Positions 3,655 through 7,180 of a stretch of DNA of 7,180 nt are shown one piece after another; positions within the stretch are counted from its first letter, which is position 1, and every line of letters begins with the position of its first letter. Below the pieces are notes generated by a model. It ran no database searches and was not told the origin of the DNA. It saw only the letters and a program-made list of their open reading frames with translations. The position numbers were made by a program, and so were the translations under genes. Origin of the DNA: Candidatus Fermentibacterota bacterium. GTDB taxonomy: Bacteria; JAFGKV01. The stretch lies in NCBI GenBank assembly GCA_030620115.1, contig JAUXFG010000179.1, forward strand, positions 1 through 7,180, written 5' to 3'.

Positions 3655-3866
3655 AAATGTCCAATGCCCAACATTGAAGTGGGGCTCTTCCTTCGATCTC
3701 CGATGTTGAACCGAGTGAGCTGTCAGCCCTCGGCCGGAGGAGTATTGCATCTCTGGAGGGACGCGCTCCGTCGCGGCCGCCGTATCGAGCGTCAACGGCC
3801 ATGACGGAGCATGGCCCTCCATCATCCTCACTTCGACGTTGGATGGTCAATGTTCGATGTTCGATG
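3655..3866. repeat. Intergenic compound hairpin (TGGAGGG...CCCTCCA)
   Basis: The core arms are TGGAGGGACGCGCTCCGTC (3754-3772) and GACGGAGCATGGCCCTCCA (3803-3821). They pair over 15 of 19 positions, with one 4-nt internal mismatch block, and GGCCG/CGGCC (3775-3779 with 3796-3800) adds a further inner stem. Outside the core, a left flank with CCAACATTGAAG (3668-3679) faces a right flank with CTTCGACGTTGG (3831-3842) and CAATGTTCGATGTTCGATG, which are partly complementary. The nested symmetry suggests one mobile or dispersed intergenic element. Short open frames crossing it are low-complexity translations of the repeats and are not called as genes. Confidence 0.65.
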
Positions 3867-3879
3867 TTCTTCCTCCCTA

Positions 3880-3947
3880 TTCCCCCACTCCCCCATTCCA
3901 GCAATCAAGCAATCAAGCAATCAAGCAATCCCCCATTCCCCCATTCC
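3880..3947 (+). repeat. Tandem AGCAATCA 8-mers flanked by CCCCCATTCC phrases
   Basis: Three perfect AGCAATCA units and a fourth ending in C (3900-3931) are framed on both sides by copies of CCCC(C)A(T/C)TCC (3881-3899 and 3930-3947). Together with the compound hairpin to its left this fills much of the gene-free stretch 3298-4117. Beyond 3947 only a TGTGCA/TGCACA hairpin (3973-3989) and a 9-bp direct repeat ACCGGTTTG (4058-4066 and 4094-4102) were noticed. Confidence 0.75.
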
Positions 3948-4117: not shown

Positions 4118-6760
4118 ATGGATGGAAGGTCATCGCGGATCGGAAGAAAGCTGGAGATATGGGTATTGCTTCCCCTATGCCTCAGCGCACACGCGGGCAC
4201 CATCAAATTGAATGAGATGATGTCATCGAATCTGATGACCATTGAGGATGAAGATGGGGATTCTTCAGATTGGATCGAGTTGTACAACGAAGGACCGGAT
4301 ACCGTGTTCCTCCTTGGCTACGGCCTCTCGGATGAGGAGGATAATCCCTTCAAATGGACATTCCCAGACGTGCCACTCCCCCAGCGCGGGTTTCTCCTCG
4401 TATTCGCCTCTGGAAAGGACCGTGCGTCCTGGCCCGGGGAACTTCATGCTAATTTCCGCATCCGAGCCGACGGTGAGTTATTACTTCTTACTGCCCCGGA
4501 TGCAGCACAGGCCGACGTCTTGGAGCCAGTGCCCCTGGATTCCGACATCTCATATGGGAGAGTTCCCGACGGCGGCGACGGATGGTGGTTCTTCGAGAAT
4601 CCCACTCCTGGTGAGAGCAATGGTTCCGATCCGCCAACGCAACGAGCCCCTCCGCCCATATTCCTTCTGCCCAGCGGATTCTATCCGGCGGGGATCTGGG
4701 TCGCGTTGAGCTGCGAAGATCCCGCGGCAGTCATCCGCTTCACGTTGGATGGAAGCCCCCCCACAGATACATCCTCTGTCTACACCGACCCGATGATCTT
4801 GGCAACGGTCACCGTAGTTCGTGCGGCAACCTGGTGTCAAGGCATGTTGCCGAGCAAGCCTGTCAATGTCACGTACATCGTGGGGTACGACACATCGTTG
4901 CCAGTGGTCTCATTGATCACCCATCCCGACAATCTGTGGAGTGACGAATGTGGCATCTATGTGGAGGGGCCCAATGCGGCTCCCCAGCAACCTCACATCG
5001 GTGCGAACTACTGGCAGGATTGGGAGATCCCCGTTCATTTCCAGTTCTTGGATGAGACTGGCCAATTCGCACACTCCATGGATGTTGGCATGGCCATCCA
5101 TGGCGGATGGACAAGAACGCTGCCCCAGAAAAGCCTTCGAATCACGGCCCGCGATGAGTTCGGCTCTGATCGGATCAGGTACCCGCTCTTCCCTTCTGAG
5201 CCCATCAGTTCCTTCAAGGCGCTCATTCTCCGCAACTCTGGAAACGACTGGGCTTCAACAATGATGCGGGATGTTTTGATGACCGGATTGACCAAGGGCG
5301 CCGAAATTGGAATACAAGCATACCGCCCCGTGGTGGTATTCCTCAATGGCGAGTACTGGGGCATCCACAATCTCCGCGAGCGGCTGAGCGAGTTCTATCT
5401 CGCCGCCCACTATGGCGTTGCCAAAGACAGCGTCGATCTCATCGAAAACAACCGGCGGGTCAATGCAGGCGACATGGAGGCATTCGCCGCACTCACTGCC
5501 CTTGTGGAGAGCAATGATCTGTCGGATTCATCAGCCTATGATTCCGTACGCACCATGATGGACATAGAGGATTTCATCCGATACCAGGCTGTGGAGATCT
5601 ATCTCGCAAACAAGGATTGGCCGGCGAACAACATTAAGTGCTGGCACCCGAGGGGGCCTGACGGCCGCTTTCGATGGCTCCTCTATGATACTGACAACGG
5701 CTTTTGCCTCCACGGATCGGTGGATCACAACACCCTGGAGTATGCCACGGCGGTTGACAGTGATCACTGGGCAAACCCTCCTCACGCCACGCTGCTCCTC
5801 CGCAAGCTGCTCGATAACTCGCGATTCCGCCAAGATTTCATCGTACGCTTCTGCGACCTCATGAACAGCTTCTTCGCGGCGGACCGCGTCCTTGGGCATA
5901 TCAACAGGCTGCGGGACGGCATAGCGGATGAGATGCCTTCCCACGAGGCACGCTGGTACCCAGATCATGATTGGGAATCTCAACTGGAGACGCTTCGTCA
6001 GTTTGCCGTGCTTCGGAAAGGATACGTGCTCGATCATCTGCGAGCCAAATTCGATCTCGCCGGGACACTCACGCTCACTGTGGATCGTTCACCCGACCAG
6101 GGAGGGCGAGTACGAGTGAACCCATTCTTCCTCGATGGATATCCATGGCGCGGCCAATACTTCTCGGGCCTTCCAATTGAGCTGCACGCCGAGCCATTTG
6201 CCGGATACCGGTTCATGGCATGGGCTGGTGATACCGTGGCAACGCAACAGACCATGGTCATTCGGCCAATCACCAACACCAGGATTCAAGCCCTTTTCGA
6301 GCCGACCTCCATACCGGACTGCGGTATCGCTATCACGGAGATCAACTACCACAGTGCTGATGACTGGGATACCGGTGACTGGGTGGAGCTCTTCGCCTAC
6401 TCCGGCTCTCAAGATCTTGGAGGCTGGATGCTCCAAGACCGAAACGATGATCACTGCTTCTTCTTCCCGTGGGGGACGATACTGCATGAGGGCCATCATC
6501 TTGTGCTCGCGTCTGACAGAGAATCCTTTACCGCCCTTTTCCCGGAAGTGAACTCGGTGATTGGAGATATCGGCTTTGATCTTGGAAACACTCCAACGCG
6601 GATATCTGCCTTCGGGCCCACATTATTTCCTATTCGATGGCTCACATGTGGCCAGCGGTACCTACTTCATCCACGCGGGGATTCCCGGGAAGCTGAATCA
6701 AGTACGCCGAGCCATCCTCATCAAATGATTCATTCAACCCGGGATTACACCTTTCAATGA
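4118..6760 (+). CDS. Secreted CotH-kinase protein with lamin-tail domains (3' end probably frameshifted)
   Basis: As read, the protein is 880 aa. It has a signal peptide (1-26, basic start, WVLLPLCL core, AHA cleavage site) and a lamin-tail domain at about 28-165 (KLNEMMSSN, DWIELYN). A chitobiase-C/FN3-like domain follows at about 180-256 (IRFTLDGSPP). The CotH domain spans about 262-620: FLNGEYWGIHNLRERLSEFY (409-428), NKDWPANN (498-505) and LLYDTDNGF (521-529), whose acidic residues D500, D524 and D526 are the likely ATP/metal ligands. An InlB-like repeat lies at about 650-730, and a second lamin-tail domain begins at about 736. CotH proteins are atypical kinases that phosphorylate secreted proteins, and lamin-tail domains are common on exported enzymes. 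The ATG at 4118 has AAGGAA 9 nt upstream and begins a proper signal peptide. The GTG at 4064 has neither. After residue ~824 the second lamin-tail domain breaks off and the reading frame appears wrong. The substrate is unknown. Confidence 0.88.
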   Translation: MDGRSSRIGRKLEIWVLLPLCLSAHAGTIKLNEMMSSNLMTIEDEDGDSSDWIELYNEGPDTVFLLGYGLSDEEDNPFKWTFPDVPLPQRGFLLVFASGKDRASWPGELHANFRIRADGELLLLTAPDAAQADVLEPVPLDSDISYGRVPDGGDGWWFFENPTPGESNGSDPPTQRAPPPIFLLPSGFYPAGIWVALSCEDPAAVIRFTLDGSPPTDTSSVYTDPMILATVTVVRAATWCQGMLPSKPVNVTYIVGYDTSLPVVSLITHPDNLWSDECGIYVEGPNAAPQQPHIGANYWQDWEIPVHFQFLDETGQFAHSMDVGMAIHGGWTRTLPQKSLRITARDEFGSDRIRYPLFPSEPISSFKALILRNSGNDWASTMMRDVLMTGLTKGAEIGIQAYRPVVVFLNGEYWGIHNLRERLSEFYLAAHYGVAKDSVDLIENNRRVNAGDMEAFAALTALVESNDLSDSSAYDSVRTMMDIEDFIRYQAVEIYLANKDWPANNIKCWHPRGPDGRFRWLLYDTDNGFCLHGSVDHNTLEYATAVDSDHWANPPHATLLLRKLLDNSRFRQDFIVRFCDLMNSFFAADRVLGHINRLRDGIADEMPSHEARWYPDHDWESQLETLRQFAVLRKGYVLDHLRAKFDLAGTLTLTVDRSPDQGGRVRVNPFFLDGYPWRGQYFSGLPIELHAEPFAGYRFMAWAGDTVATQQTMVIRPITNTRIQALFEPTSIPDCGIAITEINYHSADDWDTGDWVELFAYSGSQDLGGWMLQDRNDDHCFFFPWGTILHEGHHLVLASDRESFTALFPEVNSVIGDIGFDLGNTPTRISAFGPTLFPIRWLTCGQRYLLHPRGDSREAESSTPSHPHQMIHSTRDYTFQ
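6585..6728 (+). pseudogene. Out-of-frame C-terminal sorting-type tail of the CotH protein
   Basis: In the +1 frame relative to the CotH gene, an open stretch (6561-6728) encodes ETLQRGYLPSGPHYFLFDG followed by SHVASGTYFIHAG and a basic end, LNQVRRAILIK, then a TGA at 6726. The pattern LP-x-G-x-H...FDG-x...ASG-x-Y-F...R-x-ILxK is that of FlgD-Ig-like or type IX secretion C-terminal domains, which end proteins in several FCB-group phyla. The in-frame reading of the same DNA (TPTRISAFGP onward) is proline- and histidine-rich and resembles no domain end. The most economical explanation is an out-of-frame deletion or indel between about 6575 and 6640 that removed the rest of the lamin-tail domain and the front of the sorting domain. 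A sequencing or assembly error is the alternative. Confidence 0.65.
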
Positions 6761-6802: not shown

Positions 6803-7180
6803 ATGTTCTCGCGTGTTGCCCTGTTTCCCATAATCTTCGGCGTGGTATTCGTGGTCTCGGTGAAGATCACGCCTGATACCATCGGGGTCCGGGGCGTGGT
6901 CTATCCGCTGAACGAGTGGTCGTTCGCCTTTGATGGCGAAAGCTACCTCGAACGCACGGAAAGATGCGGGAGCATCCATGCAGTACGACGCTGGCAGGGA
7001 AGACGGGGCGAACCAGTGGTGGTACAAGCCATGCCGGGCATTGCCCCAGGAATGAAGGTGACGCAGGGGCAGACAGTGGCCTCTCTCTGTTTCCCCATGG
7101 AAACCTACCAGTACGCCACGGCCCTGGCCTGCCTGGAGACTGCCAAGGCTGAGCTTAGGCTTCTTGAAGCAGCCCCCAGG
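6803..7180 (+). CDS. Membrane fusion protein, HlyD/RND periplasmic adaptor type (3'-partial)
   Basis: The first 126 residues are present; the frame is open to the window end. An N-terminal hydrophobic anchor (about 5-20, VALFPIIFGVVFVVSV) is followed by a lipoyl-like beta segment. Its second half reads VVVQAMPGIAPGMKVTQGQTVASL (73-95), with the G-M-x-V-x-x-G-Q-x-V turn typical of biotinyl/lipoyl-like domains of adaptor proteins. A helix rich in Ala, Glu and Leu then begins (YATALACLETAKAELRLLEA, 104-123), as expected for the coiled-coil hairpin. Such proteins link an inner-membrane pump to an outer-membrane channel in Gram-negative export systems. A very strong ribosome site, AAAGGAGGG at about 6789-6797, lies 5-6 nt before the ATG. 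The 42-bp gap after the CotH gene suggests possible co-transcription. The pump partner would lie beyond the window. Confidence 0.7.
   Translation, partial: MFSRVALFPIIFGVVFVVSVKITPDTIGVRGVVYPLNEWSFAFDGESYLERTERCGSIHAVRRWQGRRGEPVVVQAMPGIAPGMKVTQGQTVASLCFPMETYQYATALACLETAKAELRLLEAAPR

Follow-up and report, generated by a model that had tools for sequence, protein, structure and literature searches.

An out-of-frame sorting-domain remnant at the end of a CotH-family gene points to a probable internal deletion in a putative type IX secretion cargo of Candidatus Fermentibacterota

Introduction

A close described counterpart to the locus reported here is the type A C-terminal sorting domain (CTD) of the type IX secretion system (T9SS; TIGR04183 Por_Secre_tail, PF13860 FlgD_ig). 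RgpB without its CTD, or lacking just the last two residues of it, stays in the periplasm (PMC5445135, PMC11285876), and the targeting signal of HBP35 has been mapped to the last 22 residues of the CTD (PMC11285876). The putative cargo in this case is a CotH-family protein, and protein kinase activity is known for Bacillus subtilis CotH (PMC7821199). The locus resembles a type A sorting domain in the last ~47 residues, with an SGTYF strand and a basic C-terminal strand, but here the first half of the Ig-like domain is absent, and what is left of it lies outside the reading frame of the cargo. Pseudogenes and 3'-truncated alleles that arose by internal deletion likewise have a frame-disrupting deletion in an otherwise open gene, and the gene described here differs from them solely in how clearly both edges are recognisable. 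The literature search found no paper on the CotH-family protein of this locus, nor on a T9SS cargo gene damaged in this way.

Results and discussion

The stretch analysed (the window) is one whole contig of 7,180 bp (C136) from a 4.1-Mb draft genome of 296 contigs; all features described below lie on its forward strand. The CotH-family gene as it now reads is an open frame that runs from ATG 4118 to a stop at 6758-6760 and encodes 880 amino acids. In the ORF listing of the window, frame 2 is open from 4064 to the same stop, with ATG 4118 as the likely start; read from the sequence, GAAGGAAAG precedes this ATG, and a stretch that resembles a signal peptide (by eye only), with a basic n-region and WVLLPLCLSAHA, follows it. 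The domain order is putative signal peptide, first lamin-tail domain (LTD1), chitobiase C-terminal-like domain, CotH domain, InlB-like repeat and second lamin-tail domain (LTD2). LTD1 spans 4247-4516 (PF00932, residues 62-151 of the frame from 4064; E value of 3e-16 for the whole protein, in two stretches), and the chitobiase/beta-hexosaminidase C-terminal-like domain spans 4670-4858 (PF13290, residues 203-265, E value of 8.4e-14). The CotH kinase-like domain at 5093-6025 is complete, covering profile positions 2-321 of 322 of PF08757 with an E value of 3.8e-49, and its 168.4 bits against a curated cut-off of 23.8, a result that was repeated, place the protein in the CotH kinase family. A divergent InlB B-repeat-like domain at 6149-6304 (PF18998, E value of 1.2e-4) scored slightly below its curated cut-off. 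Apart from its end, the gene is free of stops, and a downstream HlyD-like gene starts within the window (6803-7180), with AGGAGG upstream of it as read from the sequence.

The left edge of the lesion lies in LTD2 (6326-6589), which is truncated after LGN. A profile derived from 41 homologous LTD2 domains matched it at positions 3-93 of 116 with 95.8 bits, and the match ended at FDLGN (residues 842-844, ~6589). Here, the paralogue from the same genome (L017, G000:C78:22118-24541, 59% identity) runs on with LGNGGDQVRLYDCSNALVDSVEYDDEPPWPVEPDG, where the window has no such sequence, and both this paralogue and homologue L003 (genome G056) continue through the remainder of LTD2. The in-frame sequence after LGN consists of 56 residues (6590-6757, including the peptide YLLHPR) up to the stop that ends at 6760, and it had no family match and was unseen in homologues. 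An earlier note on this DNA had claimed that the annotated frame breaks off inside LTD2 near FDLGN and carries on as non-domain sequence to 6760, and both parts of that description held.

The right edge lies in the +1 frame, which is open from 6561 to a TGA at 6726-6728 and reads LETLQRGYLPSGPHYFLFDGSHVASGTYFIHAGIPGKLNQVRRAILIK. Within it, the C-terminal half of a FlgD-Ig/T9SS sorting domain (6585-6728), recognised by profile matches and codon usage, begins with ETLQRG at 6585 and can be written as ETLQRGYLPSG...RRAILIK or as LETLQRGYLPSG...RRAILIK; it contains the peptide GYLPSGPHYFLFDGSHVASGTYFIHAGIPGK, and its last residues are LNQVRRAILIK. Neither Pfam nor NCBIfam returned a match for the +1 peptide, which is too short for general models, and local CTD profiles were built instead. 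The first, made from 42 sorting domains from proteins of the same genome (100 positions), matched the +1 peptide at positions 50-99 with 16.8 bits and an E value of 4.7e-5 over all ORFs of the window, while the best of 10,000 shuffles reached 7.2 bits. The second, made from 50 CotH homologues (95 positions), matched at positions 49-95 with 19.4 bits (E value of 7.1e-6; best shuffle 8.9 bits). None of the other reading frames of the window rose above ~5 bits against the CTD profile. On these scores the match is significant but short (17-19 bits) and, as judged from the alignment to the profiles, the second half of the CTD is present to its last residue while the first ~49 residues are absent. 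The complete in-frame C-terminal Ig-like sorting domain expected of a T9SS cargo is thus replaced by its last half in the +1 frame. The sorting-type tail that had been proposed from ASGTYF, LNQVRRAILIK and a stop at 6726 was matched by both profiles, although its start proved to be slightly earlier, at ETLQRG; the proposed search of the +1 translation against C-terminal domain models found the CTD family with the local profiles, with Pfam and NCBIfam silent. With both truncated homologies evident from profiles, the claimed absence of the end of LTD2 and the front of the sorting domain was also confirmed.

The size of the missing segment could be estimated from homologues, in which the LTD2 and CTD junction points lie 118-129 residues apart in 32 of the 34 that carry both domains (mode 120); the two exceptions, L100 and L102, have more sequence between these points. 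In the window, the two points overlap by ~5 bases, GAAAC at 6585-6589, which are counted in both homologies and are a possible microhomology. The putative deletion junction was placed at 6585-6592, where the end of the LTD2 match overlaps the start of the CTD match. Assuming the modal spacing of homologues for the ancestor, ~365 bp or ~120 residues would be gone, which supports the earlier proposal of a deletion joining two domains out of frame. The frame change needs a deletion length of 2 mod 3, and 365 fits; this is consistent with the frame change but is not independent evidence for a deletion. A single-base indel was rejected given the ~120 missing residues. Codon statistics trained on the same genome favoured the CotH frame through LTD2 (+30.2 bits), and for 6590-6725 they gave +7.6 bits for the +1 frame versus -12.4 for the CotH frame. 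After the junction, codon-position G+C likewise followed the +1 frame, with 0.62/0.42/0.60 against 0.60/0.43/0.65 in the gene body.

I consider it probable (roughly 0.83) that one deletion of ~365 bp broke the gene, which would account for both the missing sequence and the frame change. The ancestral gene would have encoded a CotH kinase-like protein that was exported by Sec and then by the T9SS, and that ended in LTD2, a linker and a FlgD-Ig-type sorting domain, as its homologues do. A single internal event would have taken everything from the last part of LTD2 through the linker to the middle of the CTD, and the remainder would have been rejoined out of frame, perhaps via the ~5 bp of microhomology, such that translation would now add 56 meaningless residues up to 6760. 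The gene would then be a recent pseudogene or a loss-of-location allele.

The open +1 tail that ends like a CTD might also suggest a programmed +1 frameshift or phase variation, by which some of the product would gain the tail with C-terminal strands sufficient for T9SS export, and the earlier note had hedged in this direction. This is very improbable. The region 6540-6660 has no homopolymer of at least four bases and no slippery run for programmed ribosomal frameshifting, there are no tandem repeats near the junction, and a search for inverted repeats gave only short imperfect ones. The genome itself yielded no duplicate of the region or the tail such as a phase-variable locus might have. Moreover, a shift would leave LTD2 cut and half of the CTD absent, since a change of frame cannot restore the lost domain halves, and no homologue is built with both frames in this way. 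Nothing at the junction suggests frameshifting.

A second alternative is an assembly that dropped ~0.36 kb from a gene that is whole in the organism. The draft state of the genome with its 296 contigs, the position of the window's contig end at a graph fork, and the otherwise stop-free gene would be in keeping with such an artefact. C136 and a second contig, C103, end in the same 117 bp that start contig C124 (window 7064-7180), and such an exact overlap is what a de Bruijn graph with k of ~117 typically leaves. With ~5 bp shared at the junction, a false join should not occur there, as an unsupported join needs far more shared sequence, and the junction should be carried by reads. The junction flanks are also unique in the genome, and 590 bp separate the junction from the contig end. 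Were an intact allele also common in the sample, a contig break would be expected at the junction. The assembly error that the earlier note had allowed for is therefore unlikely at this k, and the deletion is likely, rather than proven, to be real and present in the organism. The HlyD-like starts of C136 and C103 are 69% identical at the protein level, followed by identical DNA over the last 117 bp; they represent either a pair of paralogues with a converted segment in common or a single gene with two alternative upstream regions.

The CotH homologues, most of them 36-48% identical to the window protein, provide the reference for the ancestral tail. Homologues such as L003, L101 (Krumholzibacteriota), L112 and L124 have the same domain order as the window gene up to the middle of LTD2 and the same type of CTD; they keep a complete LTD2, linker and CTD in a single frame, whereas the window gene lacks ~120 residues and has its CTD half in another frame. 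Looking for a longer in-frame version among homologues had been suggested earlier: 34 homologues carry LTD2 and CTD, and among the homologues examined none has an in-frame ending like that at 6760. A close orthologue was sought in three genomes of the same phylum (its own and two of the same family), where only the paralogue L017 aligned over the length of the protein, and no closer orthologue was found. Over the shared part, at 59% identity, L017 has a whole LTD2 like the homologues, but it ends in a different, Fn3-like looking segment and has no CTD where the window gene has half of one. As the paralogue lacks a CTD and no orthologue is closer, the ancestral tail had to be reconstructed from homologues of at most 48% identity. 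The nearest of these outside the genome itself is L099 (48%), from Candidatus Electryonea clarkiae; an in-frame stop codon interrupts its gene, and beyond this stop LTD2, linker and CTD follow complete and without a change of frame. This single stop, at residue 719, stands where relatives have tryptophan (RYP*EGEYF versus GYPWRGQYF) and is either an independent lesion or a sequencing error.

Genomic context bears on whether the CTD half belonged to this gene at all. By the 117-bp overlap, the HlyD-like gene continues in C124 and is followed by a VTC-domain gene, and CotH lies near VTC in eight of the homologue loci that were examined (L108, L109, L112, L116, L117, L148, L153 and L174). This recurring neighbourhood supports the view that the CotH gene naturally ended where the half CTD now lies, with the caveat that C124 is also reached from C103. 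As an alternative, the CotH gene may have been fused, or joined by a larger rearrangement, to the 3' end of some other gene that carried a CTD; this reading would draw on the abundance of CTDs in the genome, the orphan CTD pieces found elsewhere in it, and the missing CTD of L017. It is nevertheless quite unlikely: the CTD sits at the expected place in most homologues, CotH adjoining VTC recurs in homologue loci, and HlyD and VTC follow directly here, which suggests no loss beyond the gene. To see whether another conserved gene owns the CTD half, the regions ahead of HlyD in C103 and in the two family relatives were inspected; their genes differ, and no such owner was found. Regardless of the lesion, several phyla have CotH and VTC-domain genes close together (on the path from C136 to C124 with a HlyD-like gene in between), and a functional link between CotH kinase-like and VTC proteins is possible.

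The genome has 49 FlgD_ig and ~60 Por_Secre_tail matches over the cut-off, as well as a partial SprA_N match over the cut-off (positions 368-499 of 510) and six PorV-family matches over the cut-off; on the SprA_N and PorV-family matches, it encodes a T9SS. Together with the many CTDs, this means that a CTD on the CotH-family protein would have had a T9SS to use. Following the proposed deletion, the CTD-less product would likely be stranded in the periplasm, not released, or would misfold. The kinase-like domain itself is complete but would no longer reach the surface, and the shortened LTD2 may make the protein less stable. The earlier expectation that the lesion would release or mislocalise a secreted kinase is thus upheld for mislocalisation but not for release, as CTD-less RgpB stays in the periplasm (PMC5445135, PMC11285876). 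Since the HBP35 signal lies in the last 22 residues of the CTD, a protein that had gained the tail by frameshifting could in principle still be exported; that occasional frameshifting supplies C-terminal CTD strands that are enough for T9SS export, with the kinase split between periplasm and surface, is nonetheless hardly to be expected.

Two orphan T9SS-type CTDs were seen elsewhere in the genome, one at L198 1999-2202 (G000:C6), in a 68-aa frame without the first strands, and one at L199 1946-2251 (G000:C29:17445-17750), in a 102-aa frame. Both are likely debris of other T9SS cargo genes, so that damage to such genes would not be exceptional here, and alongside the lesion in the window they hint at ongoing loss of T9SS cargo genes in this lineage. 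The lesion in this uncultured bacterium appears to be gene damage of the usual kind, not a new mechanism. A deletion, of a length that can be estimated from homologues, would explain the odd out-of-frame ending as the separation of a T9SS cargo from its export signal. The case also calls for caution in annotation, as the gene would pass as an intact 880-residue CotH protein and Pfam and NCBIfam miss the lost CTD.

Away from the CotH-family gene, the window carries two dispersed intergenic repeats (3-68 and 67-130) with tens of copies across the genome. The repeat at 67-130 has a palindrome-like core, AAAACTTGACTCATCTGTTAAGTTTT, and a further copy at 1241-1303 (87% identical), and one dispersed-repeat copy closely precedes an ArsR-type regulator gene (176-586). 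Intergenic tandem repeats of 7-8 bp (e.g. AACGCTG, TTCGATG and AGCAATCA) occur at 676-699, 1135-1168 and 3832-3947.
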